DNA from: Paracoccaceae bacterium
GTDB lineage: Bacteria > Pseudomonadota > Alphaproteobacteria > Rhodobacterales > Rhodobacteraceae
Assembly: GCA_902554885.1 (NCBI GenBank)
Contig: CACDPV010000006.1
Coordinates: 1-64,000 of the forward strand
Direction: 5' to 3'
DNA length: 64,000 bases
Part shown: in pieces, positions 349 through 17,610 of the stretch
Layout: each line of letters begins with the position of its first letter
Numbering within the stretch: position 1 is the first letter of the stretch
The notes under the pieces: model-generated
Told to the model about the DNA's origin: nothing
Seen by the model: the letters and a program-made list of their open reading frames with translations, nothing else
Databases searched by the model: none
Program-made: the position numbers and the translations under genes

Positions 349-2057
349 TGGCTTCCACGATATCGAGATATGATTATTCGGCAATGTATGGTCCAACAAC
401 TGGCGACAAAATACGGCTTGCTGATACCGAACTTATTATCGAGGTAGAGCGGGATTTCACAACCTATGGTGAAGAAGTTAAGTTCGGCGGTGGAAAGGTT
501 ATCCGAGATGGAATGGGCCAATCACAGACCACACGCTCTCAAGGCGCCGTGGATACTGTGCTAACCAACGCGCTGGTTATAGATTACAGCGGTATATATA
601 AGGCAGATGTTGGTTTAATGAATGGGCGCATTTTAAAGATTGGCAAAGCAGGAAACCCTGATACGCAGCCAAATGTTGATATTGTGATTGGCCCAGGCAC
701 GGAAATAATTGCAGCAGAAGGTAAAATCTTAACGGCGGGTGGCTTTGATAGCCATATTCATTTTATATGTCCGCAGCAAATCGAGGATGCCCTGCACTCT
801 GGAATTACAACCATGTTGGGAGGTGGTACAGGGCCGGCACATGGGACGCTTGCAACTACTTGCACTCCTGGGCCCTGGCATATAGCCCGAATGCTTCAGT
901 CAGCAGATGCATTTCCTATGAACCTTGCATTTGCAGGAAAAGGAAATGCTTCCCTTCCTCAGGCATTAGAAGAGCAAATTAGAGGTGGTGCATGTGCGTT
1001 AAAATTGCATGAAGATTGGGGTACCACGCCGGGGGCAATAGATTGCTGTTTGAGTGTAGCGGACGCCATGGATGTACAGGTTATGATACATACTGATACT
1101 TTGAATGAGTCTGGTTTTGTGGAGAATACAATTAAAGCTTTAAAAGGGCGGACAATACATGCTTTTCACACGGAGGGTGCTGGGGGAGGGCATGCTCCTG
1201 ACATTATAAAAATTTGTGGAGAAGATTATGTTTTACCGTCTTCCACAAATCCAACCAGACCTTTCACAAAAAATACAATAGAGGAACATCTTGACATGCT
1301 TATGGTATGTCATCATCTGGATAAATCTATTCCTGAAGACGTCGCTTTTGCTGAAAGTCGTATACGGCGTGAGACTATTGCCGCAGAAGATATTCTACAT
1401 GACATGGGTGCATTCAGTATCATAGCTTCTGATAGTCAAGCAATGGGCCGAGTCGGAGAGGTCCTCATAAGAACTTGGCAAACTGCTGACAAAATGAAAA
1501 AGCAAAGAGGGCAATTAATAGATGAAGATGGTAACAATGATAATTACCGTGTCAGAAGGTATATTGCGAAATATACTATTAATCCGGCCATCGCACATGG
1601 AATGTCCAGTGAGATTGGTAGTGTTGAGATAGGAAAACGGGCTGATTTGGTCCTTTGGGATCCTGCTTTTTTTGGTGTTAAGCCAGAGATGGTCCTACTT
1701 GGAGGTACTATTGCAATGGCTCAGATGGGTGACCCTAATGCATCTATTCCAACGCCCCAACCAGTTTATTCCCGCCCAATGTTTGGCGCGTATGGGCGTT
1801 CAGTTGAAAAATCAGCGGTTTCATTTGTCAGTAAAGCAGCTTTGGACGATGGGATAAGGAACACACTTGGACTGGCAAAAGAAGTTTTGCCGGTGATCAA
1901 TACAAGAGATATTGGTAAGGCAGATTTGCAGCTAAATAACGCGACACCGGTTATTGAGGTTAATCCCGAGACCTACGAGGTTAGGGCAGACGGTGAATTA
2001 TTGACGTGCGAACCTGCTGAAGTTCTTCCAATGGCTCAGCGTTATTTTATGTTTTGA
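348..2057 (+). CDS. ureC: Urease subunit alpha (catalytic)
   Basis: This is the 569-residue catalytic subunit of urease, an amidohydrolase with a two-nickel centre. Visible motifs are the metal-binding HIH in GGFDSHIHF, the carbamylated lysine in [11 protein letters not shown], the metal histidine in [12 protein letters not shown], the [15 protein letters not shown] segment, and the mobile-flap Cys/His pair in MVCHHLD. Length matches the family (about 570). It follows ureB with a one-base overlap and precedes ureE by 9 bases. All catalytic residues appear intact, so an active enzyme is expected once nickel is inserted by the accessory proteins encoded downstream. Confidence 0.98.
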
Positions 2058-2066
2058 GGAGTAAAT

Positions 2067-2504
2067 ATGGATTTGCCTAGTTGTTTAGACGTCGTACATA
2101 GCCATAAACCTGACGAATTTGTCATTTTGGATTACCATGCAAGGTTTTTGCGTCGCAAGGTTTTAGAAACTGAGAGCGGTCTCAAATTTCTAGTGGATCT
2201 TCCCAAAACGAGGTCAATTTCCAAGAACGAAGCCTTTGTGCTGGAGGATGGGAGGCTGGTTGGTGTAGTTTTCGCTAATGAAGAATTATTGCAGATAAAG
2301 GGTGATCTTTTGAAGTTTGCATGGCACATCGGTAATCGTCACGTGCCGTGTCAAATTGAAGGGGCACGGCTACTCATTCAAAAAGATCATGTCATCAAGG
2401 AAATGCTAATCAAATTAGGCGCTGAGGTGGAAACTGTAAAAGAGCCATTCAATCCAGAGGGAGGTGCCTATGGTTACGGACGTACGCACAGCCATGCCCA
2501 CTGA
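2067..2504 (+). CDS. ureE: Urease accessory protein, nickel metallochaperone
   Basis: UreE delivers nickel to the urease apoprotein complex. The 145-residue protein has the N-terminal UreE peptide-binding-like domain and the C-terminal metal-binding domain, and ends in a short histidine-bearing tail (GRTHSHAH) that fits a nickel-binding tail, though shorter than the His-rich tails of some enterobacterial UreE. The gene starts 9 bases after ureC and its 3' end overlaps the start of ureF, so both belong to one transcription unit. Confidence 0.93.
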   Translation: MDLPSCLDVVHSHKPDEFVILDYHARFLRRKVLETESGLKFLVDLPKTRSISKNEAFVLEDGRLVGVVFANEELLQIKGDLLKFAWHIGNRHVPCQIEGARLLIQKDHVIKEMLIKLGAEVETVKEPFNPEGGAYGYGRTHSHAH

Positions 2505-3141
2505 TCAAAGCATCTTAACCCTAAGTCAGTGGATCTCTCCTTCGTATCCTGTTGGATCCTTCACATATAGTCACGGTCTTGAGGCTATTGTGAATTTACA
2601 GTGGCTGGGTAATGCAGACAGTCTTCGCGAGTGGCTTTTTAATATTTTGCAGCATGGTGCGGCTCGTACAGATGCATTGTTTTTAGCTGCCGCCTATAAT
2701 TGTAAATCAGATGAGGCTCTTATCGAAATGAATATGAAGGCTCGTGCACTTGCAAGTTCTCAGGAGCGCCTTTTAGAGATGGACGAACTTGGTAAAGCAT
2801 TTAAAAGTGTCACAGAAGCAGTATGGCCAATTGAAATTGATGAGTTGGTATACCCAATTGCAATTGGTTTTTGTGCGAATGCCGAGGGAATAGAATTAAA
2901 TTTGACGACCTGTTTATATTTGCAGGCCTATGTATCAAATTTGGTTTCTGCGGCACAGCGATTGATGCCACTTGGTCAAACTGAGGCTCAAAAAATTATA
3001 AAAACATTATCACCAATTTGTCTCCAAGTTGCTGATGAAACGAGAGACGGTAATTTAGATAATATTTATTCATCTGTCTTTATTTCAGATATTGCAGCAA
3101 TGAAACATGAAACACAGGTGTCGAGGATATTTAAAACATGA
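2470..3141 (+). CDS. ureF: Urease accessory protein UreF
   Basis: UreF works with UreD/H and UreG as a GTPase-regulating scaffold for nickel insertion into urease. The protein contains the conserved [16 protein letters not shown] segment near its N terminus and the helical UreF fold. I place the start at the ATG at 2470 because GGGAGG lies about five bases upstream; a GTG at 2464 and an ATG at 2494 are in frame but have no well-spaced ribosome binding site. It overlaps ureE by 35 bases and shares ATGA with ureG. No ureD is seen in the window; it may lie upstream of position 1. Confidence 0.92.
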
Positions 3142-3749
3142 TGAAGCAAAATGGTCCACTTAGGATAGGTATAGGTGGCCCCGTAGGCGCCGGGAAAACA
3201 ACATTGACAGCACGATTATGCAAGTTGATGAAAGGTTCATATTCAATTGCAGCTATAACAAACGATATCTACACTCAAGAGGATGCGGAAGCTCTGACAC
3301 GTATGCAGGTTCTGAGCTCTGATAGAATTCTTGGGGTCGAAACAGGCGGGTGCCCTCATACTGCGATCCGAGAGGACGCATCCATTAATCTTGCTGCGGT
3401 AGCGAAAATGAATGAGCGTTTACCTGATCTTGAAGTCATTTTAATTGAGTCAGGAGGAGATAATTTGTCTGCCACCTTTAGTCCTGAATTAGCAGACCTA
3501 ACTATCTATGTTATTGATGTTGCTGCTGGGGAAGAAATTCCTCGCAAGGGAGGCCCAGCCATTACACGCTCTGATATACTTGTTATAAATAAGACAGATC
3601 TTGCACCGCATGTAGGTGCTAGTTTAGAGGTGATGGAGCGTGATGCTTTAAAAATGAGGGGTGGCCTGCCAACTATTTTTGCATCGTTAAAAGCAGGTCA
3701 AAATTCAGATAAAATTTTTGAAAAAATTCGAGAAATTGGTGGTTTATAG
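3138..3749 (+). CDS. ureG: Urease accessory GTPase UreG
   Basis: UreG is the SIMIBI-class GTPase that drives nickel insertion into urease. The 203-residue protein has the P-loop [10 protein letters not shown] near residue 12, the metal-binding CPH ([13 protein letters not shown]), [11 protein letters not shown], and the guanine-specificity NKTD (VINKTDLA). It overlaps ureF by four bases (ATGA). It is the last gene of the urease operon here; a convergent SorC-family regulator ends 37 bases downstream. No clear terminator hairpin is seen in that gap. Confidence 0.96.
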
Positions 3750-3786
3750 CCTATAACCCTAAGATCATCTTTGTATAATATTTAGT

Positions 3787-4767
3787 TTAATTCTTAAGAA
3801 TTTCTAAAATTAGGTTTTCATCCAAGATGACGTGCGTTGCGTGCCCACCAGTCAGTGCGGCTTTGACGGCATGTAATTTTTTCTCTCCGGATGCAACCAT
3901 GATGCGTTTTGGCGTTTTTCTTATTTCAGCGGGAGTAATTGAAATCATACAATCATTTAATGGTGATGGAAGATTATCACCGTTAGACTTTATGAAATTG
4001 CCACAGAGAAAACCAACGCCTCCATTCGAGATAATTTCATCTAAGTGTTTTCGTTTAATTAGGCCGGATGACAGAACGTGAGTAGTTTCTGTTAAATCCC
4101 CAACTGAAGTCAGTATCGCATTTAGATTTTCTAATCTTTTTAATTGTTCTTTTATCGCTGGCTCATCTCTTAGAGCTGTAGCCAAACTTGAAGACGATAA
4201 AATGGCGGGAGCGTGTAGAGTATGGCATTGAGCTCCAATTTTGTTTGCAATTTGGATTGCACAATCTTCTGCACTTAGCAATCTATCAGATTCCATCGAG
4301 CCAATTACTTGACATACCTCGGTATCGGGTATCCCCCTGTTTGGGAGCTGCTCTCCAATTAGCTTTATTGTCTCCCCCCATGCAATTCCCAATAAGTCCC
4401 CCGGATTGATTATGTCATGAAGTGCAAGAGCAGCCACTCGAGCTGTATGCCTTAACGAAAAGTCTGATTTTGCTTTTCTTCCAACATATGCAACATAGAC
4501 ACCTTCAAGTTTATATTTCTGTGCTAAATCTCGCGCCATCTTTGAAGAATTAAGGGTCTCGCCATTTACTCGTATATCAACGATGCCCCGCTCTCTTCCT
4601 TCCTTGAGATAATTCAAAATAGTTGTACGAGACAAACCAAGACGTTTTGCAATCTCACTTTGATTGAGGCCCTCTTGGTAATACAGCAACGCAATATTTG
4701 CGAGATAGCCATCATCTCTTAGAATATAGTTTGGAGAGTGATTAAATTTTTGTTTGAGTTGCTTCAA
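3787..4767 (-). CDS. SorC-family sugar-binding transcriptional regulator
   Basis: A 326-residue regulator with an N-terminal helix-turn-helix (about residues 34-58, NQSEIAKRLGLSRTTILNYL) followed by the sugar-binding domain of the SorC/DeoR-like family (YVGRKA, LGIAWGETI, VGDL). Such proteins sense sugar phosphates and control adjacent sugar operons. It is the last gene of a - strand run mtnK, mtnA, aldolase/SDR, regulator, starting 36 bases after the aldolase stop. The likely effector is therefore an intermediate of that pathway, such as 5-methylthioribulose-1-phosphate or 5-deoxyribulose-1-phosphate; this is inference from position. Confidence 0.85.
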   Translation of the reverse strand: MKQLKQKFNHSPNYILRDDGYLANIALLYYQEGLNQSEIAKRLGLSRTTILNYLKEGRERGIVDIRVNGETLNSSKMARDLAQKYKLEGVYVAYVGRKAKSDFSLRHTARVAALALHDIINPGDLLGIAWGETIKLIGEQLPNRGIPDTEVCQVIGSMESDRLLSAEDCAIQIANKIGAQCHTLHAPAILSSSSLATALRDEPAIKEQLKRLENLNAILTSVGDLTETTHVLSSGLIKRKHLDEIISNGGVGFLCGNFIKSNGDNLPSPLNDCMISITPAEIRKTPKRIMVASGEKKLHAVKAALTGGHATHVILDENLILEILKN

Positions 4768-4803
4768 TAGTTTTTATGATACCTTTATCAGAGTTACTTT
4801 AAG

Positions 4804-6837
4804 TTACCGTAAACTTGCCTCTATATTACCACCATCGACGGTCATAACATGTCCAGTTGTGCTTTCAGCACAAGCCAATGCCGTGAACGCATCTGCAACA
4901 TGTTCAGCTGTAACTTCCTTATTTAGTAGGTTTCCTGCCATATACTCAGACTCTGAAACTCCACGAGATTTAGCTCGGGATGATATGAAGTCATCGGTAA
5001 GAAGACCGGAACGAATTCTGTCCGCATTTATACCATTCACACGAATTCCATCAGGCCCCAGTTCAAGTGCTAACTGTCGCATTAAGAAAAATGTTGTAGC
5101 CTTTGGGAGCCCATAGGCACCAAAGTTCTTGCCGGGGTTCACTGCTTGCTTTGATATGTTGAACAGAATTTGGCCCCCGCGATTTTGATCTTTCATAATT
5201 TTTGCCGCCTCCGTCGAAAAGCTGTAATGGGAGAAAAAGTTCAATTCAAAGGCATTTCGCAACTCTTCATTTGAAATGTCCAGCATTGGGCCTGCATGCG
5301 CGGCTCCGGCATTGGAAATTAATATATCTAATCCACCAAAAATATTTATAGCAGCCAACATGGCTTGGTTGGCTGCATCGGAATGAGTTACGTCAATTGG
5401 AAAATATTTGTGTCCAACGCCAAGTTTAGTAACGGCTTCTTTCAAAGCTATCTCGTCTTTGTCAACAAGAATGGTTTGGGCTCCAAGCTTAGAAAAGGCC
5501 TCAGCTATTGCAAAGCCGATTGTTCCAGAGCCGCCAGTTATCATCACAATTTTACCTTGGAACTTGGGTGATGCACCCTTTCCGAGCTTAGCTTGTTCAA
5601 GTGACCAGTATTCGCAATCGAATAAGTCCTTTTCAGAGATTGGCCTGAATCCCCCAGCATCTTCGCCAATAGCTCTTACTCGGGCATTTTGAACTACCAG
5701 ATCACCTGCTATGCTGGCTGCCTTTGCATTTGCACCTAATCCAATTAAGCCGATACCTTCCATCCAAATAGTTTTTGGATCAGTTGGCAACATTGTTTTG
5801 GGTTGGTCGGCTAGCGGTGCTTGGCGCTCAAACATCGCTTTATATGCTTTTGCATATTTATCTAGTTCTTTTTTAATTGCTTCTCTGCCCTTAGACCAAA
5901 CCGACTCCCGCAAGACTAAAGGTCTACTCTTTATGCGGATAACGTGATCTGGAGAAGCAGTCCCTCTCGTTGAGAGTTCTTCAAGATCATTGCGTTTAAG
6001 GAATTGGAGTTCGTCTTTCCCATTCCTGAGATCCATTATCGGCATAGGTGAGTTTGGTCCAATCATATCACCTATCAGGCCTCGTATGATTGGAAATACA
6101 CCGCTTGCCTTGTGGGGATTACGAGTGAAAAGGTTTGTTGGTTTCTCCATTTTTAGGTAGTCAGATACTGCTTGAGTATGCAGGATTATTTGATCATAAC
6201 TTTCTTTGGCAGTCTCTCCAAAGGCAAAATGACCATGTCCCAAAAGCATTAGGCCCTCTACGCTTGGATTTTGGTCAAATACTTCTGCCGCTTTTTTTGC
6301 CAAAGCAAACCCAGGCATAATGTATGGAACAATACCTAGCTTCTCCCCAAAGATTTCTTTACAGACTTCACGCGCGTTGGGTAAATTCGCTAAAATAAGA
6401 AATGGTGTTGCGTGCGTATGGTCGATGAACTTGTGGGGTAGAAAGGCATGCAATAAAGTTTCTACGGACGGATTAGGTGAGCTGCTGTCTAGTAAATTTG
6501 CGCGCTGAATATTAACCATGTCCTCATCGGAAAGCTGCTCAAGGTCTCGCAATTTCATAAGGGGTTCTAACCATAAACCTGGAAGCCCTGGTGCAAGAAT
6601 TGTGTCCAAGTCCCAGCCAGATCCTTTAACGTGCATGACTTTGCAGGTTTCCCCAAAAAGATTTTTTCTTTCTACTTTAACAGAAGTGTTCCCGCCTCCA
6701 TGCATTACGAGATCTGGATTTTGGCCAATCAACCGAGATGTATAAACTCTAAGTGCTAACTGTTGGTCCGCATCGTTTTTGGAAGCTTCAAACAACCAAA
6801 TTTCAGCGTCTTTTCGCTTATAATTGTTTTTAATCAT
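4804..6837 (-). CDS. Bifunctional class II aldolase / short-chain dehydrogenase
   Basis: A 677-residue fusion. Residues about 1-410 form a class II (zinc) aldolase/adducin domain with probable metal ligands H140 and H142 (DHTHATPF) and H201/H203 (GHGHF). The rest is a short-chain dehydrogenase with the nucleotide motif [15 protein letters not shown] and catalytic YGLPK. The architecture is that of RhaD-type bifunctional rhamnulose-1-phosphate aldolase/dehydrogenases. No rhamnose genes are near; the gene overlaps mtnA and sits in one run with mtnK, so I infer that it splits 5-methylthio- (or 5-deoxy-) ribulose-1-phosphate into DHAP and an aldehyde, and that the second domain oxidises or reduces the aldehyde. 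The fold is certain and the substrate inferred. Confidence 0.82.
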
Positions 6838-7939
6838 TGTCTGAGGCTCCTGCCATTTCTGGGAACATTTCTGCTAATGCATCTTTAGAAGCTTGAGAAA
6901 TACCTCGCTCTGTTATCAACCCGGTAATAAGCCTATTCGGCGTTACATCAAATGCTGGATTTCCACCAGGGACTCCTTCAGATGTAACTTGAACCTCAGC
7001 AATACTATTTTCTGAATTTCTACCTAATATATGAGTTACTTCTCTCTCTGGCCTTTCTTCAATTGGGATATCTGTTAGGCCGTCATTAATGCGCCAGTCT
7101 ATTGTGGGAGACGGTAGTGCAACATAGAAAGGCACGTTGTTGTCATGGGCAGCAAGGGCTTTTAGGTAAGTCCCAATCTTATTACACACATCGCCTTGAG
7201 CTGTTGTTCTATCAGTACCAACAATAACCATATCAACTAAACCTTTCTGCATGAGATGGCCTCCTGCATTATCAGTTATGTAAGTATTGCTAATACCGTG
7301 GCTCTGTAATTCCCAGGCAGTCATGCCTCCCTGGTTTCTTGGTCTTGTTTCGTCGACCCACACATGTATTGGAATATTTTCATTGTGGGCGTGATACATA
7401 GGGGATGTTGCAGTGCCCCAATCCACGGTAGCTGGCCAACCAGCATTACAATGAGTCAGTAAACGTACAGGCTCTCCTGGTTCTTTTACTTCCGCTAATT
7501 TTTTGATGATTTTTAAACCAAACTCACCAATGTTTTTATTTATTTTAACATCTTCTTCTGCAATTTGATGTGCGATTTTCATTGCAATTGCTGGGCGTTG
7601 ATTTTCTGGTATGTTCGCTAAATCTTTTTGCATCCTGTCTAGTGACCAACGTAAATTTATTGCAGTCGGGCGAGTTTTGATTAAGGTCTCATATGCATTT
7701 TTTAAACCGCCGTCAGACGCCTCATTTTCTAGTGCTACGGCAACTCCATAAGCAGCCGTAGCGCCAATTAATGGAGCGCCTCTGACCCACATATCCTTTA
7801 TCGCAGTTGCAAAACTCTGCAATGTTTCTAGTTCGACTATTTTAAAATCATGTGGCAACCAACGCTGGTCTATTATTTTAACTTTTGAAAGTTCATGATC
7901 ATACCAAATTGATCGGTAATGAGTGCCGTTTACCTTCAT
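6830..7939 (-). CDS. mtnA: S-methyl-5-thioribose-1-phosphate isomerase (MtnA family)
   Basis: The 369-residue protein belongs to the MtnA branch of the eIF2B-alpha/MtnA family and isomerises methylthioribose-1-phosphate to methylthioribulose-1-phosphate; related enzymes also take 5-deoxyribose-1-phosphate. Seen in sequence: the N-terminal [14 protein letters not shown], the catalytic cysteine C164 in [10 protein letters not shown], and the catalytic aspartate D243 in [18 protein letters not shown]. Length fits the family. It shares ATGA (7936-7939) with the end of mtnK and overlaps the aldolase start by eight bases, so all three enzymes are probably made from one message. No other methionine-salvage gene (mtnB, C, D) is seen here. 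Confidence 0.93.
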
Positions 7940-9198
7940 AGGTGTTTCTCCGAATTATATTTTCTTGCAAGCATTTGGATTGCTTCGACATCTTTGATTT
8001 GGTTTCTTTCAAGGATGAGTTGGCGACCCATCATAAGAGTTCTAGCTTCCAGTTTCGATCGCACGTGTGTATCAGATATTTCTTCAAAATCCGCATTGTG
8101 AGCAAGGGAAAGAATACGTCTGTGCATCTCGATCCCACACACGCCTAATGCGTCTGACCATATCTGTTCGAGTACTCCATAAAGTGCTGCTTCTGAGCTG
8201 TGGCCTTGATCTTCAAAAAGGCTTTTTGGAAATAAAATACCTTGTCTTTCATTGTGCCAAAGATTGCTAAATTCATTTATGAAAGCCGAGTATATTTCGT
8301 CAATAACTGATAAAATCCAATCTTGGTACTTTTCTAGGGTATTTTCAGTCCTGTGACCCGGTTGACTAAAGTAAGCCATTAAAAAATTAGATATTAGCAT
8401 ACCGATATCAAAACCCATGGGTCCGTAAAAACCAAATTCAGGATCAATAATTTTCGTTTCGGTGTCAGTACACATTACCGATCCAGAATGTAGATCTCCG
8501 TGAAGTAATGTTTCCGTATTTGAAGCGAATTTTTGAAGTATTTTTTGAGCGTCTGTCTTCAGAGAAATGTCAGATCTTAGCTTTTTTACAACCGGTTCTA
8601 GCCCTTGCGTGTGATGGTTCATCTCGGCTTCGAAGTAGGGGTCAGTAAAGACTAGGTTTTCAGAAATTGCCATGAGTTCAACATTGCCTTGAAAAAGCGC
8701 AGTATCTTTCTTTTTTTCATTTGTTGGCAATGATAGATCTGATCCCCTAAACGCAGTGCGAGCACAAAAATGACCAAGAGTTTTGCCAAGTCCATTTACG
8801 TATTCTCCCGCAATTAATTTTTTTCGTAGAATGACATGTGGAGATAGCATCTCCATTGCAATAATAGCTTGTTCTTTATCAAAATAGTAAATCTGTGGAA
8901 CGCTACCTGGATCTCGTTTGGCTTGCCTACTAAGCGTCTCATGTTCAAAAAATGCGCGCTTTAGTGAAAGAGGCCAGCTATCTCCGACAACCCTCACATA
9001 CGGCAAGGCCTGTTTTACTATGATAGTTGCACTTTTTCCTTCAACGACAAATACAAGATTAAGGTTTCCATCCCCGACTTCTGTGACCCTCCATTCCTGA
9101 GCTTCTTTACCAATTAACGAAGTGATACTATCTAAATTTTTCAATCGTTCCGGAAGTGTTTTGGGAGTTAGAGGTTCATACGCTAAATCATCTCTCAT
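7936..9198 (-). CDS. mtnK: S-methyl-5-thioribose kinase (MtnK family)
   Basis: An APH-fold sugar kinase that phosphorylates O1 of methylthioribose. Family motifs are [29 protein letters not shown], the catalytic loop [11 protein letters not shown] and the metal-binding [17 protein letters not shown]. The reading frame is open up to 9294, but I place the start at the ATG at 9198, giving 420 residues like known MtnK, because that is where homology begins and a GAGG lies upstream. It heads the - strand catabolic run and is divergent from the ABC importer that starts at 9313. 5-Deoxyribose kinase activity is an alternative that sequence alone cannot exclude. Confidence 0.9.
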
Positions 9199-9253
9199 TT
9201 GGAGCCTCTTAACTAAAATCATTAATAAAGCAAGCATTGGCAAATTTAGACTT

Positions 9254-9272
9254 TTGTCAAGAGTGTTGACAA
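9254..9272. promoter_or_regulatory. Inverted repeat in the mtnK/ABC divergent promoter region
   Basis: TTGTCAA, five bases, TTGACAA form perfect 7-bp arms in the 114-base gap between the divergent mtnK and rbsA-like genes. The right arm contains a TTGACA that could be a -35 element for the + strand importer. A SorC-type operator controlling both sides is a reasonable inference, because the SorC gene is in the same locus. Confidence 0.4.
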
Positions 9273-9312
9273 TTGAAAAGCCTCTTGTAAGCATAAGTTT
9301 TAGGAGGGCGTC

Positions 9313-10845
9313 ATGGTGGAATTAGCTTGTCAGATTTCAGGAATTGTTAAGTCTTTCGGGCTGAACCAAGTGCTAAAAGAAGTTGATTTAGAATTGCCAT
9401 CCGCCACAGTTACCGTTCTGATGGGCGCAAACGGTGCTGGAAAATCTACTCTAGTCAAAATATTGTGTGGGGTTCATAAAGCAGACATAGGGCGCGTAAC
9501 GCTTTTTGGAAAAAATTTTGCACCAGACTCGCCGTCAGATGCTTTTCAATCTGGCGTGGTTACCGTTCATCAAACGATTAATAATGGGGTAATTCCAGAT
9601 CTTGACGTCGCTTCAAATCTGTTGATTGATCGCCTGGCTGATAGTAGTGCAGGATTTTTTATAAGAAAGGAAAAACTGCGTAGTGAAGCCAGAAAAGTGG
9701 CATCTACTATGGACTTAGATTTAGATATAACCGCAGTTGTTAGGGATCTGGGGTTAGCGGACAGGCAGATGATTGCAATTGCTAGAGCAATGACCCGCAA
9801 TCCCAAATTACTAATACTTGATGAGCCGACTTCCTCTCTTTCAGCTAACGAAGCTAAACGCCTTTTTAAACTTTTAGCTAATTTAAAAAAGCAAGGAGTG
9901 GCTATCCTATATATCTCCCATCGCATGTCAGATATAAGAGCTATTGCAGATCGAATAGTAACAATGAGGGATGGTAAAATCTCTGGGGTTTTCGAGGGTG
10001 CTTCTTTGGATTACGAGGGTGCAGTAACTGCTATGCTTGGTCAAAAGATGGTTCATGCTAAACTGCAAACGCAACAAAAGGGAACACCTATATTTGAATT
10101 GCGTAATGCGAAACTATCAAAATACAGTAATCCTTTCGATTTAGTATTTTACAAGAATGAAATTATCGCAATTACTGGCTTATTAGGCAGTGGAAAGACT
10201 GCAATAGCTTCTGCCATTTTCGGTTTAAACCCTCTTTTAGAGGGGGAAATGCTTCTGCATGGTGAGGCCTATAACCCAAAAAGTCCTGCTGATGCGATAT
10301 CAAAAGGTATTTTCATGTGTCCAAAAGACAGGTCAACTAATGCCGTGGTCTCCGATTTTGATATTACAAATAATATGGTTCTCCCGTTCTTGGATCGGCA
10401 CACTTGGTTTTCATTTTTGAAATCAAAAAATTTAGAGAGAAAATCAAGTGTGTCGATCTCTGAATTGGGGATTGTCTGCCAGTCAGAGCTTGATTTGGTT
10501 ACTACGCTCTCTGGAGGCAATCAACAAAAGGTAATGATTGGTCGCTGGCTATCTGAAGAATCAGAGGTTTTGTTACTTGATGAGCCATTTCAGGGCGTTG
10601 ATATTAAAGCTCGCAGGGATATTGGAAGTCACATAAGGCAGTCATCGAATGAGAGAGCAACATTAGTTTTCGTTTCAGAATTAGATGAGGCAGTTGAAAT
10701 TGCTGATAAAATTGTAGTTTTGCATGAAGGTTCTTATGCTGGTATCTTCGAGAATAAAGAGTCTAATATCTTAGATATTCTTTCTTTATATAGTGGAAAA
10801 TCGACTAAAGCCGCTGCTACTGCAACGGAAAGGTTAAATGGGTAA
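9313..10845 (+). CDS. Sugar ABC transporter ATP-binding protein (RbsA/XylG type)
   Basis: A 510-residue tandem ABC ATPase energising a ribose-type importer. The first cassette has Walker A GANGAGKST and Walker B LLILDEPTSSLS with a degenerate signature; the second has GLLGSGKTA, signature LSGGNQQK and LLLDEPFQGVD. The two-cassette length is typical for RbsA. AGGAGG at 9302-9307 precedes the ATG. It starts a three-gene + strand operon (ATPase, permease, binding protein) divergent from mtnK, which suggests the imported sugar is the MtnK substrate, such as methylthioribose or 5-deoxyribose. Confidence 0.92.
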   Translation: MVELACQISGIVKSFGLNQVLKEVDLELPSATVTVLMGANGAGKSTLVKILCGVHKADIGRVTLFGKNFAPDSPSDAFQSGVVTVHQTINNGVIPDLDVASNLLIDRLADSSAGFFIRKEKLRSEARKVASTMDLDLDITAVVRDLGLADRQMIAIARAMTRNPKLLILDEPTSSLSANEAKRLFKLLANLKKQGVAILYISHRMSDIRAIADRIVTMRDGKISGVFEGASLDYEGAVTAMLGQKMVHAKLQTQQKGTPIFELRNAKLSKYSNPFDLVFYKNEIIAITGLLGSGKTAIASAIFGLNPLLEGEMLLHGEAYNPKSPADAISKGIFMCPKDRSTNAVVSDFDITNNMVLPFLDRHTWFSFLKSKNLERKSSVSISELGIVCQSELDLVTTLSGGNQQKVMIGRWLSEESEVLLLDEPFQGVDIKARRDIGSHIRQSSNERATLVFVSELDEAVEIADKIVVLHEGSYAGIFENKESNILDILSLYSGKSTKAAATATERLNG

Positions 10846-10854
10846 AGAAGTATT

Positions 10855-11859
10855 ATGAATATTAGAAGTTTCGCAATTCGTTATGGTTTTCTTTTATTGC
10901 TCTTGGGTTTAGTCTTATTTTTCTCCGCAGTGGCGGAGGGTTTTGCAGGTCCACGCTCTGCAGTTTTCATTTTTCAATCTGTTTCAATTACCGGTATTCT
11001 GGCACTTGGTGTCACTGCAACATTGGTAGTAGATGGATTTGATCTTTCTATAGGTTCGGTTGCTACCTCAGCACTTATGCTTTCAGCTTATGTTATGGTT
11101 GTACTTGAGATGTCAGCATTCATGGCCATAATATCTTGCCTTATTATGGGAGCGTTTGTGGGCTTAGTTAATGGGCTTCTAATCGTAAAGGCGAGGGTTC
11201 CAGACTTGTTAGCTACACTGGGGATGATGTTTCTACTCATAGGCCTGCAACGTATTCCTACCGAAGGCAGATCAATCTCCACTGGTATGAAGTTACCGAG
11301 CGGTGAGACAGCTGAAGGCGTCTATTCTCAGAGTTTTTTATGGCTTGGCCGTCACCGTTTAGATTTTTTTCTGGAAGACCTGATACCAATACCCGTAATA
11401 ATATTTATATTAGTTGGAATTTTTATCTGGCTATTCCTAGAACTCACCAGGCATGGAAGGCTTATGTATGCAATAGGCTCAAATGAGACTGCGACAGCTT
11501 TGGCAGGAGCGAATGTTAATAAATATAAGATACTTGCTTATGTAATTTCGGGTATTACTGCTTCGATTGGTGGAATACTACTTTCGGCCAGATTAGGCAG
11601 AGGGGATATAGCTTCGGGAAATAATTTGTTACTAGACTCTGTCGCAGCGGCATTAATAGGTTTTGCCGTTCTTGGAGCAGCAAAACCTAATGCATTTGGT
11701 ACTGCAATAGGGGCACTTTTTGTTGGTGTTCTTCTTCAAGGTTTGACGATGATGAATGCACCGTACTATACTCAAGATTTCGTAAAGGGGAGTGTTTTAG
11801 TAATTGCACTTATCTTTACATTTGCTCTTTCATCAAAAGGGCGAAAAACTGGCCACTGA
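10855..11859 (+). CDS. Sugar ABC transporter permease (RbsC type)
   Basis: A 334-residue inner-membrane permease of the BPD_transp_2 (ribose/autoinducer-2) family, with about eight to ten hydrophobic segments. Conserved features are VVDGFDLSIGSVA, GLLIVKARVPDLLATLG, YAIGSNETATALAGANV and GRGDIASGNNLLLDSVAAALIG. It begins nine bases after the ATPase gene and is followed 35 bases later by the binding-protein gene, so the three form one importer. It acts at the inner membrane with the 9313-10845 ATPase. Confidence 0.92.
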   Translation: MNIRSFAIRYGFLLLLLGLVLFFSAVAEGFAGPRSAVFIFQSVSITGILALGVTATLVVDGFDLSIGSVATSALMLSAYVMVVLEMSAFMAIISCLIMGAFVGLVNGLLIVKARVPDLLATLGMMFLLIGLQRIPTEGRSISTGMKLPSGETAEGVYSQSFLWLGRHRLDFFLEDLIPIPVIIFILVGIFIWLFLELTRHGRLMYAIGSNETATALAGANVNKYKILAYVISGITASIGGILLSARLGRGDIASGNNLLLDSVAAALIGFAVLGAAKPNAFGTAIGALFVGVLLQGLTMMNAPYYTQDFVKGSVLVIALIFTFALSSKGRKTGH

Positions 11860-11894
11860 ATTAAAAGGCTTTTAACATACCATGGGAGGAAAAT

Positions 11895-12941
11895 ATGTTT
11901 AGAAGATCAATACTAAAAATACTAGGAGGAAGTGTGGTGCTACCTGCGCTTTTTTCAACTGCAGTAACAGCTAGTGATATGCCTGCGCCGTTTGATAATC
12001 CAGGAGACGTAAAAATTGCACTTGTCAGATTTCTATCTACAGGTGATTTTTTTCAAGCCTATCTTTCGGGAGTAGAAACACAAGCGGCAGCAATAGGCGT
12101 TGACTTAAGAGTGTTCGATAGCAGGCAGGATGCAGCGCTTCAATCTGATATGGTTGATCAAGCCATAACATTAGGCGTTGATGGTATTATTATTCAGCAT
12201 GGACTTACAGAGAGTATGCGTGATGCAGCTCAAAGAGCAGTTGATGCCGGTATCAAAGTCGTTGCATTTGATGTAAATGTTGAAAATTCAGCAATACCTC
12301 AGATTGAGCAATCAGATTATCTATTAGGGAAATTGGCGTTGGAACAGGCCATAATTGATAATGGTACGAGTTGGAAAGCTGGCTATGTATATGTGCCGGG
12401 AATTGCGCCCCTAGATCGACGTCATGCTGCTTGGGAAGATATAAAAGCAGCAAATCCAGGCATAGAGGAAGTTGCTCAATTTGGTACACTTGATAATCCG
12501 ATAGCTAATTCCAACGCAAACCAAGCAAGATCAGTTTTACAAGCAAATTCAGATATTACGGTAATGTTTGCTCCATATGATGAGTTTGCAAAAGGTGTCA
12601 AAATTGCAGTTGATGAAGCAGGTTTAACTGACCAAATCGATATATACTCTGCGGACGTGTCGACTGCTGATATTTCGGCGATGAGGGAGCCAAATTCTGC
12701 ATGGGCTGCCACGGTTGCAACAAATCCTGCAGTTGTTGGAGAGGTATCGGTCAGATCACTTGCGATGATGCTTGCTGGAGAAAATCCAGGTAGTAATGTT
12801 GTAGTGCCCCCAACACTTATTACACAAGCTTTCTTAAATGAGAATGATATAAAGAACATGGAGGACTTATCTGCAAAAATGCCTCAGTTTGCGCATGCGG
12901 ATGTGTCAGTGCCTAGTTGGATGCCTCTTCCTGCTAGATAA
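11895..12941 (+). CDS. Periplasmic sugar-binding protein (RbsB type)
   Basis: A 348-residue periplasmic binding protein (Peripla_BP_4 fold). The N terminus (about 26 residues) is a signal peptide with RRSILK, which could be read by the Tat or the Sec system, and a likely cleavage after VTA. The mature part shows KIALVRFLSTGDFFQAYLSG, ITLGVDGIIIQHG and VDAGIKVVAFD, typical of ribose-type receptors. A GGAGG precedes the ATG. It is the last gene of the importer operon and is followed at once by a terminator hairpin. The ligand is inferred from neighbours to be a modified ribose. Confidence 0.9.
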   Translation: MFRRSILKILGGSVVLPALFSTAVTASDMPAPFDNPGDVKIALVRFLSTGDFFQAYLSGVETQAAAIGVDLRVFDSRQDAALQSDMVDQAITLGVDGIIIQHGLTESMRDAAQRAVDAGIKVVAFDVNVENSAIPQIEQSDYLLGKLALEQAIIDNGTSWKAGYVYVPGIAPLDRRHAAWEDIKAANPGIEEVAQFGTLDNPIANSNANQARSVLQANSDITVMFAPYDEFAKGVKIAVDEAGLTDQIDIYSADVSTADISAMREPNSAWAATVATNPAVVGEVSVRSLAMMLAGENPGSNVVVPPTLITQAFLNENDIKNMEDLSAKMPQFAHADVSVPSWMPLPAR

Positions 12942-12949
12942 ATTTAAGT

Positions 12950-12978
12950 AAAGGCTGGGTATTCTTTATCCAGCCTTT
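12950..12978. terminator. Terminator hairpin between convergent operons
   Basis: AAAGGCTGG and CCAGCCTTT form a perfect 9-bp stem with an 11-base loop, between the binding-protein gene (+) and the convergent class III PLP enzyme gene (-). A short T or A run at each end lets it act in both directions. Confidence 0.7.
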
Positions 12979-12995
12979 GACTCTCACCAATTAAC

Positions 12996-14381
12996 CTAGC
13001 CTAAGCTATTAATTCCATTTTCAATGATACTGAAAGCTTGTGTTAACTCATCGTTGTTAATTGTAAGCGGAGGACAAAGTGTTAATATTGATCCACCTCC
13101 AACTTTATAGCTCAACCCATTTGACAATGAATGATAGAGAATAGCATCTGCTTGATCTGAAGCAGGTTGATTATTCAATTTTAAGTCTATTCCATAGAAT
13201 AAACCTAGACCTCTAACATCATGAATTATTGGATGCTTAAGTTTAAGAGCTTCTAATTGTTCAAGTCCTGAGTTACCTAAAGTAACAGCATTATTGAGTA
13301 AACCGTCTTCTATTAAACAATCAATTGTAGCTAATGCGGCTGCACAACCAACGGAACTTTTTTCATGCGTGTAATGTCCCAGAGCTTTATCTTCAACGAT
13401 ATCTAGGTTTTCATTGGTAAGTAATGCAGCCATCGGGAAAACCCCTCCACCTAAGCCTTTACCAATCACTAACATATCGGGTTCAACGTCGAAGTGCTCA
13501 CATACAAACATTTTACCTGTTCTACCTAGGGCGGATGGTATTTCATCAAAAATTAATAGAACATCATTCTTTGTACAAATATCCCTAACTCTTTTCCAAT
13601 AGTTTGGGGGTGGTAACTCCACCGTAGTCCACCTCATAGGTTCCGCAACCACGGCTCCAATATCTCCCTCCATTTCGATAACATACTCTAAATAGTTGAT
13701 ACATCCGTCATGGTTCTCGTCTGCGCAATTAAAATGACATTTTCCTCTTGTAGGTGGAGGAATATGTTCTGTACCCGGCATAAGCGGTCCCACATCTTTT
13801 CGAAATAATTTTTCTCCACCTATTGAGATAGCATCTAAAGAAGCTCCGTGAAAACTGTCCCACATAGATATTGTTTTATGCCTACCTGTTGCATATCTAG
13901 CCAGTTTTAAAGCCATGCCAATTGCATTTGTTCCACCCGGTGCAAAAAGAATTTTGTTCAAATTTCCCGGAGCTAAAGAGGTAAGGCGCTCTGCGAGTTC
14001 AATTGCAACTTTATTAGTATAACGTCGTGGACAAAATGGTAGAATATCTAATTGTTCTTTAATTGCCTCAATAACTCGCTTATTCCCATGGCCGACCTGG
14101 TGGACACTATTTCCGTGAAAATCCATGATTTTCCGACCTTGCAGATCCTCAAGATATATACCGTCACTCGCTCCTAAAACATTTAAACAAGGCGTTGAGA
14201 GTGACTGATGTAAAAAGTATTTTGAGTCTTCTAATAACAATTTTTGAGAATTTTCATCGATATAATCTCGAGACCAGTCCAACCGTCTAGGAGAGAGATT
14301 TATATCACCCTCGGTATCAATCGCCTCTTTAATATGCTTTTTCTCTCTCATGTCGCATCTCTTCGAAAATTGTCTCTCCAC
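12996..14381 (-). CDS. Class III PLP-dependent aminotransferase-fold enzyme, possibly PbfA-like lyase
   Basis: A 461-residue PLP enzyme of aminotransferase class III. Seen: FHGNSVHQVGHGN, FAPGGTNAIGMALKLARYATG, SFHGASLDAISIGG, the PLP-contacting FDEIPSALGRTG and the probable Schiff-base lysine in VIGKGLGGGVFP. From memory the LHQSLSTPCL and RRYTN segments resemble a subfamily that includes (R)-1-hydroxy-2-aminoethylphosphonate ammonia-lyase (PbfA), but I could not check this. A true transaminase or a phospho-lyase is possible. It is the last gene of the - strand operon from 21964 and overlaps the isomerase-like gene by 34 bases. PhnY and PhnA at 30-33 kb could consume a phosphonoacetaldehyde product. 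Fold is sure, reaction tentative. Confidence 0.75.
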   Translation of the reverse strand: MERQFSKRCDMREKKHIKEAIDTEGDINLSPRRLDWSRDYIDENSQKLLLEDSKYFLHQSLSTPCLNVLGASDGIYLEDLQGRKIMDFHGNSVHQVGHGNKRVIEAIKEQLDILPFCPRRYTNKVAIELAERLTSLAPGNLNKILFAPGGTNAIGMALKLARYATGRHKTISMWDSFHGASLDAISIGGEKLFRKDVGPLMPGTEHIPPPTRGKCHFNCADENHDGCINYLEYVIEMEGDIGAVVAEPMRWTTVELPPPNYWKRVRDICTKNDVLLIFDEIPSALGRTGKMFVCEHFDVEPDMLVIGKGLGGGVFPMAALLTNENLDIVEDKALGHYTHEKSSVGCAAALATIDCLIEDGLLNNAVTLGNSGLEQLEALKLKHPIIHDVRGLGLFYGIDLKLNNQPASDQADAILYHSLSNGLSYKVGGGSILTLCPPLTINNDELTQAFSIIENGINSLG

Positions 14382-15115
14382 GCTAGACCATCCTCTGTAT
14401 TAGCTAATGGTCTATATTCGCAACCAAATGCTCCCCTATATCCCAGTTTTTGCATCTGTGGTAAAATTTTAGAATAATTTAACTTGCCTGGTAATGGTTC
14501 CGCCCTCGTTTCAGCTGCAGAAATTTGAACATGCCCAATGCATTCAACATTCTTGGCGAAGGCATCCATAAGATCTCCACTCTCTTTGTATACGTGATAA
14601 CAATCAAATAAGATTTTCAATCTTGGATGGTTGATGATTTTTAGAATTTCCGATGCTTGCTCTATGGTTCTAAGGAAATAACCAGGCAACTGTTCATTAC
14701 ATACTGGCTCAATGAGGATTGTTTGTGTTGAATTCTCTAACGCGTATTCCAATGAAGATATAAACGTTTTATTTGCATCATCGGCGGTTGTTATACCTGA
14801 CATTACATGAATAGCAGGAACCTGTAATTCGATCGAAACTTTAATAGCTTCCTTTATATCATGTCGATATTTTTCGCTATATTCACTAATCGCGGCACAA
14901 CCAAATGTTTCACCCATTCTTATGTTTATTCCGTTTACTTTTAGATCAAGTTCGGAAAGGACTAACTGTAATTTTTTTATGTTTTCTTTATATGGCTCGT
15001 CGTGAAATTCTACAGTTTCAAAATCATATTTTTTTGCCATAGCTAGCCTTTCAAGAAAGGGCAGCTCTTTCCAAAGGTAACCAGTATTTGCTGAAAAATT
15101 GTATTTAAAGCTCAT
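14348..15115 (-). CDS. Hydroxypyruvate isomerase-like TIM-barrel protein
   Basis: A 255-residue protein of the AP_endonuc_2/xylose-isomerase-like TIM-barrel superfamily, hydroxypyruvate isomerase branch. Diagnostic segments are FSANTGYLWKELPFLERLAMA at the start, ILIEPVCN, LFDCYHVYKESGDL, HVQISAAETRAEP and GAFGCEYRPL, which contain the expected glutamate, aspartate and histidine metal ligands. It lies 15 bases after the alcohol dehydrogenase and overlaps the next class III PLP gene. In this operon it may interconvert a three-carbon keto/aldehyde product of the upstream enzymes; the exact substrate cannot be told from sequence. Confidence 0.82.
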   Translation of the reverse strand: MSFKYNFSANTGYLWKELPFLERLAMAKKYDFETVEFHDEPYKENIKKLQLVLSELDLKVNGINIRMGETFGCAAISEYSEKYRHDIKEAIKVSIELQVPAIHVMSGITTADDANKTFISSLEYALENSTQTILIEPVCNEQLPGYFLRTIEQASEILKIINHPRLKILFDCYHVYKESGDLMDAFAKNVECIGHVQISAAETRAEPLPGKLNYSKILPQMQKLGYRGAFGCEYRPLANTEDGLAWRDNFRRDAT

Positions 15116-15130
15116 TGTGGGACCATACTA

Positions 15131-16255
15131 TCATGGTATCAAAACTTCTCGAACTGTTTTTGCATCATCTAGACGATCCATCGCCTCATTCAAATCTTCA
15201 AATTTTATTTTTCTGGAAAGCAGGCGGTCTACAGGTAAATTTCCTGTTTGAAACATGTCTAAATATTTAGGTATGTCGCGCTGGGCGATACAACTTCCCA
15301 TATATGAGCCTTTTATGATGCGCTCCTCTGCAGCAATACTTAAATGGGAGAGTGTAATTTCTACTTTTGGGCCAGGCATCCCTGCAGTCACTGTAGTGCC
15401 TCCACGTCGTGTAATGTCATAGGCAGTTTTTAGCGCGTGACCCGAGCCAGCTGTTTCAACTGCAATATTTACTCCGCCAGACGTTAGATCTCGGATTTTT
15501 TCAAGAAAGTTCTCATCTTTTGGATTTAAAGTATGATCAGCGCCTAATTCCCGTGCTAAAGCCAACTTTTCGTCGCTCAGATCAATTGCTATCGTTCTTT
15601 TTGATCCTATGGCAATTGACGCAAGCAAGGCGCTTAGGCCTACACCGCCAAGTCCGACGATAGCTACGCTATCTTCTTCTCTTGCATTGGCAGTATTAAT
15701 TACCGCGCCAACTCCCGTTACTACACCACAACCAAAAAGAGCCGCATGCTCAAATGGAATGTGACTATCTATTTTAACAAGCGCTTCTTTGGGCAAAACA
15801 GCGTATTCTGCAAAACCTGCAACACCGGAGTGATGATGAATTATTTTACCATCTTTTTTTAATCTTGTTGTGCCATCCCGAAGTACGGCTTGCGCATTTG
15901 AGATTGTCGCTGGTTCACAAAGCGCGGGCCTTCCACTTTTACACATGTCGCATTTACCGCAGCTTGCGACGTAAGACGGTACAACGTGATTACCAACCTC
16001 AAAGTCATTAACGTTTTTGCCCAGTTCTACAATTATACCTGCGGCCTCATGGCCAATAACTATCGGCATAGGTTTTCCGCGTTCACCGCTAATAGCGACT
16101 AGATCTGAGTGGCAAAGGCCCACGGCTTTTATTTGAATGAGAACTTCACCTTCTCGCGGTGCTTCAAGATCTACTTCTTCTATACTAAGTGGCCTCGAGG
16201 AAGAGTAGGGCCGAGGTAAACCAGACTCTCTAAGAACGGCGGCTCTCATTTTCAT
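15131..16255 (-). CDS. Zinc-dependent alcohol dehydrogenase (MDR family)
   Basis: A 374-residue medium-chain dehydrogenase. It has the catalytic zinc site (GLCHSDL, GHEAAGIIVELG), the four-cysteine structural zinc loop (CGKCDMCKSGRPALC), and the Rossmann motif GLGGVGLSALLA. The size and the FGCGVVTGVGAVINTA segment place it near the class III/aryl-alcohol branch. It sits between the GabT-like and isomerase-like genes in one - strand operon, so it probably oxidises or reduces an alcohol/aldehyde formed from the imported amine or polyol. Substrate unknown. Confidence 0.88.
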   Translation of the reverse strand: MKMRAAVLRESGLPRPYSSSRPLSIEEVDLEAPREGEVLIQIKAVGLCHSDLVAISGERGKPMPIVIGHEAAGIIVELGKNVNDFEVGNHVVPSYVASCGKCDMCKSGRPALCEPATISNAQAVLRDGTTRLKKDGKIIHHHSGVAGFAEYAVLPKEALVKIDSHIPFEHAALFGCGVVTGVGAVINTANAREEDSVAIVGLGGVGLSALLASIAIGSKRTIAIDLSDEKLALARELGADHTLNPKDENFLEKIRDLTSGGVNIAVETAGSGHALKTAYDITRRGGTTVTAGMPGPKVEITLSHLSIAAEERIIKGSYMGSCIAQRDIPKYLDMFQTGNLPVDRLLSRKIKFEDLNEAMDRLDDAKTVREVLIP

Positions 16256-16273
16256 TTCTCATGCGCCTCCAAG

Positions 16274-17560
16274 TTATACGCAAGCTTCCTCTAATGATGC
16301 CTCAAGTATTTTTAAGCCCTCAGTAACTACTTCTTTAGACGCCGTTAACGGGACTAGTAATCTTATCACGTTCCGAGTCGGTCCGGCAGTTACAAGGATT
16401 AGTCCATTTTTAAGCGCAATCTGAGCAACTTTCGCAGCCAGTTCTCCATCAGGTTCACGTGTTTCTTTATTTTTCACCAATTCAATGGCGTTCATACAAC
16501 CGAGGGCTCTGACGTCCCCAATGCAGTCAAATGAATTTCTCGTCGCCATTTTATTTAGATATTGGTCAATTAATTTTCCTGTTTCGAGACCTTTTTCAAG
16601 TAAATTTTCACTTTCAAAAGCGTCCATAACTGCTAGGGCAGCCGCGCAGGCCATCGGGTTTCCTCCAAAAGTTCCGCCTAAACCACCAGGAGGAATGTTA
16701 TCTATAATATCTGCTTTACCTACGATGCCCGATATTGGAAGGCCGCCTCCAATGCTTTTCCCGACACAAGTCAGATCAGGGTCAATCCCGAAATGCTCCA
16801 TTGCAAACATTTTCCCAGTTCGGCCCATGCCAGATTGAATTTCGTCTGCAACAAGAATTATTCCATGCTCATCGCATAGATTTCTCAAGTATTCTATAAA
16901 TTCTAGCGTTGCGATGTTATATCCGCCTTCACCCTGTACAGGCTCAAAAAAAATAGCTGCAATTTGGTCCGGAGGACAATCACTTCTAAACAATAATTCA
17001 AATGCACGCTTAGTATCATCTAAACTTACGCCGTGAAAATCATCTGGAAACGGCAGGCGAAATATGTCCCCAGGAAAAGGGCCAAACCCTTGTTTGAAGG
17101 GGACCATTCTAGCGCTTAGTGCCATTCCCATGTATGAGCGCCCGTGGTATCCATTAGTGAAAGTTATTAAGGCAGGACGTTTAGTGTAATAGCGTGCTAT
17201 TTTAATAGCATTCTCAACAGCTTCACCCCCTGCAGAAAAAAACATGGATTTTTTCTTAAAATTCCCAGGATAAACTGCGTTTAGGCGCTCAGCAAGCTCG
17301 ATATAGCTTTCATATGGTGTCACCTGAAAACAGGTATGTGTTAATGTGTCTAGCTGATCCTTGATTGCTTTAACTACACCAGGATGGCGATGGCCAGTAT
17401 TCTGGCAACCAATTCCACCGCAAAAGTCAATATAACGCTTTCCTTCTACGTCCCAAACCTCTGCATTTTCTGCTCTGTCTGCAACAAAAGTTGCAGAGTA
17501 GGCTATTGCTTTTGCTACTGCTGTATCTCTTCTGTCTTCAAGGCTTTTATTTGTATGCAT
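16274..17560 (-). CDS. 4-aminobutyrate aminotransferase-like (class III)
   Basis: A 428-residue class III aminotransferase close to GabT. Features are GGIGCQNTGHRHP, FFSAGGEAVENAIKIARYYT, NGYHGRSYMGMALS, the PLP aspartate in VADEIQSGMGRTG and the Schiff-base lysine in CVGKSIGGGLP, with GGTFGGNP typical of GabT. It moves an amino group from an omega-amino compound to 2-oxoglutarate or pyruvate. It follows the binding-protein gene by 69 bases that hold a stable hairpin. The neighbours (importer, dehydrogenase) suggest a dedicated amine catabolic role rather than general GABA use, which is inference. Confidence 0.85.
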   Translation of the reverse strand: MHTNKSLEDRRDTAVAKAIAYSATFVADRAENAEVWDVEGKRYIDFCGGIGCQNTGHRHPGVVKAIKDQLDTLTHTCFQVTPYESYIELAERLNAVYPGNFKKKSMFFSAGGEAVENAIKIARYYTKRPALITFTNGYHGRSYMGMALSARMVPFKQGFGPFPGDIFRLPFPDDFHGVSLDDTKRAFELLFRSDCPPDQIAAIFFEPVQGEGGYNIATLEFIEYLRNLCDEHGIILVADEIQSGMGRTGKMFAMEHFGIDPDLTCVGKSIGGGLPISGIVGKADIIDNIPPGGLGGTFGGNPMACAAALAVMDAFESENLLEKGLETGKLIDQYLNKMATRNSFDCIGDVRALGCMNAIELVKNKETREPDGELAAKVAQIALKNGLILVTAGPTRNVIRLLVPLTASKEVVTEGLKILEASLEEACV

Positions 17561-17588
17561 TTTTTACCTATGTCGAAACAATTTTGAA

Positions 17589-17610
17589 ACCAGGGCAATG
17601 CTGCCCTGGT
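17589..17610. terminator. Hairpin between binding-protein gene and GabT-like gene
   Basis: ACCAGGGCA and TGCCCTGGT make a perfect 9-bp stem with a four-base loop. It lies inside the operon, just after the binding-protein stop. It may act as a partial terminator or RNA stabiliser that keeps binding-protein mRNA more abundant than the distal enzyme genes. The strong T run follows on the + strand only. Confidence 0.55.

Follow-up and report, generated by a model that had tools for sequence, protein, structure and literature searches.

Closest described systems and the proposed pathway

5-Methylthioribose (MTR) is a sulfur-containing sugar that ordinary cell metabolism leaves behind. We describe here a gene block in a 64,000-nucleotide stretch of DNA from a Paracoccaceae bacterium (the window: contig CACDPV010000006.1, positions 1 to 64,000, assembly GCA_902554885.1), and compare it with the known forms of the dihydroxyacetone phosphate (DHAP) shunt. 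The Escherichia coli shunt (mtnK-mtnA-ald2, with MtnR/YjhU) resembles this block in having a kinase, an isomerase, a class II aldolase and a transporter gene, and the two regulators belong to one Pfam sugar-binding family. E. coli S88, however, has a stand-alone Ald2, a GRP-type sugar transporter and no fused dehydrogenase, whereas in the window the aldolase is fused to a dehydrogenase and the transporter is an ABC importer that includes a binding protein. The MtnP-MtnA-Ald2 shunt of Rhodospirillum rubrum and Rhodopseudomonas palustris has identical two middle steps, but its aldolase is stand-alone and the aldehyde is reduced by a putative alcohol dehydrogenase (PMC5893883). For RhaEW, a fusion of this architecture was published in 2013 (PMC3870299). 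RhaEW and the window's fusion are alike in domain order, length, probable use of NAD, and the making and consuming of the aldehyde on one chain; RhaEW loci carry rha genes, while the family of the window's fusion is found with mtn genes.

The locus is a well-supported variant of the DHAP shunt. We consider it likely that the block is a scavenging operon fed by imported MTR, in which the fusion would both cleave the sugar phosphate and consume the aldehyde. We infer the substrate, every catalysed step, the redox direction and the regulation as follows. The RbsACB-type importer would take up MTR, MtnK would phosphorylate it at C1, and MtnA would isomerize the product to 5-methylthioribulose-1-phosphate. 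The aldolase half would then yield DHAP and 2-(methylthio)acetaldehyde. This aldehyde would be converted by the dehydrogenase half of the one polypeptide, most likely by NAD+ oxidation to (methylthio)acetate. Expression would be governed by the MtnR-type SorC regulator. The novelty is the assignment of the fusion and its alternation with Ald2, and not the importer or the fusion architecture.

Organization of the locus

On the reverse strand lie mtnK (5-methylthioribose kinase, 7936-9198; TIGR01767, 484.4 bits, cut-off 275), mtnA (5-methylthioribose-1-phosphate isomerase, 6830-7939; TIGR00512, 411.7 bits, cut-off 279), the fusion (4804-6837; class II aldolase at about residues 1-415 and short-chain dehydrogenase at about 425-677) and sorC, a SorC/DeoR-type sugar-sensing regulator (3787-4767; PF04198, 173 bits). 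The kinase and the isomerase of the shunt are thus present by scores over curated cut-offs. Divergent from mtnK, on the forward strand, are the RbsA-type ATPase (9313-10845; PF00005 in two stretches), the RbsC-type permease (10855-11859; PF02653) and the periplasmic binding protein (11895-12941). A first-pass annotation made from the DNA letters had listed all of these components, and profile matches recovered each of them. It had also described the genes as overlapping with the regulator, and this was correct only in part: mtnK and mtnA overlap by 4 nt, and mtnA and the fusion by 8 nt, but sorC is separated from the fusion by a 36-nt gap and falls beyond the interval 4804-12941.

The mtnK open reading frame (ORF) opens at 9294. 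Since the TIGR01767 match begins at residue 39 of this frame, and 15/20 relatives have an MtnK of 418-425 aa, translation probably begins at the in-frame ATG that ends at 9198. With this start, 114 bases (9199-9312) separate mtnK from the importer, and they contain an imperfect palindrome at 9258-9287 whose arms are 73% complementary. Of the 25 best NCBIfam models listed for the ATPase, none was matched over its cut-off. As the same arrangement recurs in relatives, it is not due to chance, judging from these comparisons. The source metagenome-assembled genome (MAG) is 1.46 Mb and 53% complete, and among its named relatives in the public genome collection the closest is Rhodobacteraceae bacterium MED-G08, whose fusion is 95% identical.

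The fusion alternates with Ald2-like aldolases

We surveyed 198 genomes of the family, calling the fusion at E <=1e-130 and Ald2-like proteins at E <=1e-30 (individual genomes and loci are given by our G and L handles). MtnK was over cut-off in 28 of them. The fusion was found in 23 genomes, 18 of these with mtnK. Among the 28 mtnK genomes, 18 had the fusion, with one more (G034) carrying a copy cut by a contig end; 10 had an Ald2-like stand-alone aldolase, one (G166) had both, and none had neither. This alternation gave a Fisher P of 1.4e-6, or 1.4e-5 when G034 was not counted as a carrier. In G040, G050 and G162 the Ald2-like gene directly followed sorC, in an operon otherwise equal to that of the window, and in the two that were compared (G050 and G162) the protein shared 41% identity with Ald2 of E. 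coli S88. The state of the fusion changed 6 times on the mtnK tree. The window's MAG, 53% complete, showed no Ald2-like gene at 1e-30.

We also looked for the enzymes of canonical methionine salvage. MtnB (TIGR03328) was over cut-off in 0/28 mtnK genomes, with weaker matches in 21/28 as is usual for class II aldolases, and MtnD (PF03079) was found in 0/28, the window's own MAG being just 53% complete. Canonical salvage was rejected on these grounds for all 28 genomes. Because the fusion and the Ald2-like proteins alternate, and neither MtnB nor MtnD is over cut-off in these genomes, the fusion most likely carries out the Ald2 step, as judged from sequence. The earlier proposal of a DHAP-shunt-type operon is supported.

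MtnP was over cut-off without MtnN in 17/28 mtnK genomes, and neither was over cut-off in 8/28, the window's included. As MtnP should turn internal 5'-methylthioadenosine (MTA) directly into MTR-1-phosphate, MtnK in those 17 genomes would make sense chiefly for MTR from elsewhere.

We further examined gene neighbourhoods, within a reach of 12 kb, at the 80 closest fusion loci out of 298 relatives found; neighbours were counted by tblastn with identity thresholds, greedy ORF calls being unreliable in G+C-rich loci. We observed mtnA at 52 of these loci, mtnK at 21, mtnP at 16 and rhaI at none. The importer permease was present at 17, each with mtnK, and sorC at 14, while mtnK and mtnP never occurred together. 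The 16 mtnP-bearing loci were mostly titled as Rhodospirillales-type or unclassified alphaproteobacteria. These counts suggest that the fusion often partners MtnA, with MtnP (for internal MTA) or MtnK (for free MTR) as alternative entry enzymes. Within the genus (16 genomes), mtnK was over cut-off in all 12 fusion-bearing genomes and in none of the 4 fusion-lacking ones.

Several observations weigh against this assignment. Five of the 23 fusion-bearing family genomes had no mtnK over cut-off, and 6/10 Ald2-like genes were located away from mtnK; these six distant genes could be FucA paralogues. The mtnK tree offered only 5 independent contrasts, of which 4 or 5 were as expected and 0 opposite, and the sign test on this number has a floor of 0.0625. 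The window's MAG has a further class II aldolase (G000:C21), which is not Ald2-like at 1e-30. No mtn gene was in reach at 27/80 fusion loci, partly from contig ends; at the 55 loci where upstream sequence exceeded 5 kb and downstream sequence 3 kb, an mtn gene was present in 37 and absent in 18. Finally, the fusion-lacking congeners are 59-81% complete and the window's MAG 53%, so that absences there are weak.

The mtn-less loci include L047, L052, L055 and 24 others, and L052 retains sorC. An Agrobacterium plasmid (L142:8935-10983) carries a fusion subfamily with 42% identity; the genes around it are of glycerol-phosphate and ABC importer types, and the annotation of the stretch includes neither mtn nor rha genes. 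Two opposite-oriented fusion copies with identical downstream gene clusters were seen at L042 and L053 (contig CACIIZ010000016.1); this duplication, on a contig of the single-amplified-genome type, is possibly an amplification chimera.

The fusion protein is distinct from RhaEW

The fusion (677 residues) matched PF00596 at residues 33-223 and PF00106 at 429-610. It was over the cut-off of NF006192, bifunctional aldolase/short-chain dehydrogenase (801.4 vs 639 bits), a family named by its domains alone and with no substrate. The predicted model had a mean pLDDT (per-residue confidence) of 88.7, with most of the chain confident. In an alignment of 34 sequences (the window and 33 of 60 full-length relatives), E126, H140, H142, H201, D459, S562, Y575 and K579 were invariant, so that the putative active-site residues are conserved. 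We take E126, H140, H142 and H201 to be the expected catalytic acid and zinc ligands, after the FucA/RhaD precedent, and the acidic D459 closing strand 2 is presumably as in NAD(H) enzymes.

The same two-domain architecture, along with 30-33% identity to rhaI-linked proteins, raises the alternative that the fusion is RhaEW (rhamnulose-1-phosphate aldolase/lactaldehyde dehydrogenase) and that the operon serves deoxyhexose breakdown. We consider this highly improbable, and the sequence already contradicts it. The fusion fell under the equivalog cut-off of TIGR02632 (RhaD_aldol-ADH) with 413.5 vs 567.75 bits, while a rhaI-linked Agrobacterium control reached 1154.4 bits. We built a tree of the aldolase part by a quick method with SH-aLRT (approximate likelihood-ratio) support and no bootstrap, from 58 rows (the window and 57/107 usable sequences), stand-alone RhaD, DrdA and Ald2 not being among the rows. 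Nine rows, six of them with rhaI nearby, lay across a long branch (100% SH-aLRT) from the window, and all mtn-linked rows were on the window's side. The aldolase phylogeny suggested earlier thus placed the window's fusion apart from RhaEW in this set of rows. Glu occupies position 126 in the window, in 8 other fusion rows of the mtn side and in 2 lsr-linked rows, whereas 6/6 rha-linked rows have Asp. At the dehydrogenase motif, 9/9 mtn-side fusion rows read SKQ and 6/6 RhaEW rows SKN; the Asp/SKN signatures occur in none of the nine. A second alignment comprised the window, 9 of 13 listed sequences and L122. Moreover, rhaI was near 0/80 fusion loci, and a search of the window at E 1e-5 did not find it.

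Two loci, L145:9001-10251 (Sinorhizobium meliloti pSymB) and L144:9001-10248 (Thalassospira marina), encode stand-alone proteins related to the aldolase half (43-45% identity). Their genes come after lsrB in autoinducer-2 (AI-2) uptake operons, and in the tree the proteins fall on the mtn side. Perhaps they provide an alternative last step of AI-2 breakdown.

We searched the literature and found no paper linking the bifunctional aldolase/short-chain dehydrogenase to methylthio compounds, most subscription papers being outside the search. A query combining methylthioribulose, aldolase and short-chain dehydrogenase gave as its sole match a catalogue of released proteins, judging by its title and the start of its abstract. 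What appears to be new is a candidate substrate for NF006192, which gives this curated family a substrate that can be tested, and a candidate for the enzyme that consumes the aldehyde in the DHAP shunt. In the R. palustris work the alcohol dehydrogenase at this point is termed putative or unknown (PMC5893883); the family supplies a concrete candidate gene, one fused to the aldolase.

The importer and its binding protein

The binding protein was found in 22/198 family genomes, all 22 with mtnK (hypergeometric P 4e-24), so the earlier idea that the importer is conserved with the kinase held across the family. It lay within 5 kb of mtnK in 21/22, and in G163 the two were on different contigs. A phmmer search against the PDB gave 4ry8_A (E 1.6e-67), then 5ulb (2.6e-38), then a ribose-binding protein (2.7e-16). 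We also ran a fold search with the binding protein. The predicted model (mean pLDDT 81.9) matched 4ry8_B with Z 39.4 over 315 aligned residues (root-mean-square deviation 2.6, 38% identity), ahead of 5ulb (Z 36.1) and others from 31.1 down, and 8 Z units above the best ribose-titled match. The entry 4ry8, released in 2014, is titled '5-methylthioribose transporter solute binding protein TLET_1677'. The protein is probably one for MTR, as suggested by the sequence and the model.

The first-pass annotation had called an MTR importer new, and this does not stand. An MTR ABC importer, MtrACB, was predicted first in Bacillus cereus and named in gammaproteobacteria, being then uncharacterised (PMC3228920), and a later paper calls MtrA of Bacillus subtilis authenticated for the influx of MTR (PMC5743806). 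A study of Yersinia transcription offered nothing of use on an MTR transporter. Together with the title of 4ry8, these precedents mean that an MTR ABC importer is not new as a kind. Like MtrACB and Thermotoga lettingae Tlet_1677, the importer described here is of the RbsACB type and tied to mtnK. The printed prediction, however, ties MtrACB to methionine salvage (PMC3228920), whereas here the cluster occurs in genomes without MtnB or MtnD over cut-off.

If the proposed pathway holds, marine Rhodobacteraceae may use MTR released by other microbes as a source of carbon and sulfur, which would bear on the origin of volatile sulfur compounds in the sea.

The regulator

The SorC protein was 31% identical to E. 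coli S88 YjhU over 309 aligned residues, most of its length. YjhU is reported to be MtnR, the repressor of the E. coli DHAP shunt (PMC12632272). Among the 22 importer-bearing family genomes, sorC was beside the importer or mtnKA in 19, in several arrangements, and it was not found in the examined stretches of G150, G164 and G223. The operon is probably inducible. A scan with Rfam gathering thresholds found no S-adenosylmethionine (SAM) riboswitch in window positions 1-18000, and control by one was rejected; the sole match was a 5'_ureB_sRNA antisense to ureC, inside that gene (500-789, reverse strand, 82.8 bits, cut-off 40). Conserved urease coding sequence may be the sole cause of this match.

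Substrate and redox direction

The same chemistry might serve 5-deoxyribose as the main physiological substrate, giving DHAP and acetaldehyde and then acetate; the use of MTR would be incidental. 5-Deoxyribose is among the substrates of known MtnK and MtnA enzymes, and this promiscuity, seen in the E. coli system, counts against a pathway meant for MTR; the E. coli operon uses both sugars and is strongly induced on 5-deoxyribose (PMC12632272). Acetate would also be the simpler end product. Against this, the closest solved structure to the binding protein is titled for MTR (Z 39.4), and there was no 5-deoxyribose title among the 50 fold matches listed, where some titles are incomplete and the absence is no test. 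We regard 5-deoxyribose as an unlikely main substrate. Arsenosugars from algae are 5-deoxy-5-dimethylarsinoyl ribosides, and their cleavage by the same route would yield a known type of arsenical. The imported sugar would then be another 5-substituted ribose handled by the same promiscuous enzymes; the chemistry alone speaks for this, along with the marine-looking record titles of several close relatives. We observed no arsenic protein by family among the nine window proteins scanned (3787-15115), the binding protein resembles an MTR-binding one, and the literature search, judging from titles and the openings of abstracts, turned up nothing on such a pathway. The arsenosugar idea, without support in that search, seems very improbable.

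With MTR as the preferred substrate, the direction of the second reaction has to be weighed. Most short-chain dehydrogenases interconvert alcohols and carbonyls, and this counts for an NADH-dependent reduction that yields 2-(methylthio)ethanol, the course taken in R. palustris and R. rubrum. The acidic D459 at the end of strand 2, presumably as in NAD(H) enzymes, is a point on the other side. R. palustris reduces the aldehyde to the alcohol via a putative alcohol dehydrogenase, and 2-(methylthio)ethanol is the in vivo product there (PMC5893883), which also weighs against oxidation. The characterised fusions found with the same architecture, however, yield the acid: RhaEW of Chloroflexus and Bacillus oxidises its aldehyde with NAD+ (the Bacillus enzyme being weak in vitro), and the Chloroflexus protein could not work with NADH, nor was DHAP detected unless NAD+ was present (PMC3870299). 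Because RhaEW oxidises lactaldehyde with NAD+, (methylthio)acetate and NADH are predicted here. By this analogy we somewhat favour oxidation by the dehydrogenase half and hold reduction to be possible but less probable. The earlier claim that the aldehyde is handled by the polypeptide that makes it fits the dehydrogenase found on the same chain, its action being suggested by the RhaEW precedent (PMC3870299).

On the oxidation reading, a wider proposal could well apply, and we put it forward tentatively. One polypeptide would cleave the phosphate derived from imported MTR and at once oxidise the reactive 2-(methylthio)acetaldehyde to (methylthio)acetate with formation of NADH, forming a branch of the DHAP shunt that bypasses the alcohol route. 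The aldolase would then depend on NAD+ turnover as that of RhaEW does, and MtnP-linked members of the family, which lack the kinase and the importer, would do likewise for internal MTA in many Rhodospirillales-type bacteria.

A CoA-acylating semialdehyde-dehydrogenase-type gene lies beside the fusion at L110:12167-13678 (over the TIGR01722 cut-off), L109, L063 and L091, two of these loci being from Hydrogenophilales and two alphaproteobacterial. Its product could compete for the aldehyde or extend its oxidation.

Neighbouring routes and other genes

The RuBisCO-like protein (PF00016) was absent in 7/7 searched genomes of the genus, two of them 95-96% complete, and the RuBisCO-like route (MTA-isoprenoid shunt) was rejected for the genus. 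Elsewhere, a two-gene split transketolase and a RuBisCO-like protein adjoin the MTR importer cluster (L141:17321-20055, also L121, L123, L132, L135 and L152), and a RuBisCO-fold match lay within about 8 kb of mtnK in 11/28 mtnK genomes (G025, G120, G140, G162, G166, G171, G173, G207, G233, G237 and G245). These genes possibly form another route from 5-methylthioribulose-1-phosphate. The set is absent from the window, and the literature search, with most subscription papers outside it, gave nothing joining RuBisCO-like protein, transketolase and methylthioribulose.

In genus relatives (L157:11889-14845 and L035:13085-19803) the operon is flanked by an amidohydrolase, a purine nucleoside phosphorylase and another dehydrogenase, to which some relatives add a Bmp-type ABC importer; this set was not found in the window. 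The best NCBIfam models for the amidohydrolase include 5'-deoxyadenosine and MTA deaminases, all under cut-off, while the phosphorylase is over cut-off. An entry route from MTA or nucleosides is possible for these genes.

In the window, the importer is adjoined by PbfA, a hydroxy-aminoethylphosphonate ammonia-lyase (12996-14381, reverse strand; 663 bits, cut-off 525). Three further genes at 28830-32759 (forward strand) are, we presume from their resemblance, an aminoethylphosphonate transaminase, a phosphonoacetate hydrolase and an aldehyde dehydrogenase.

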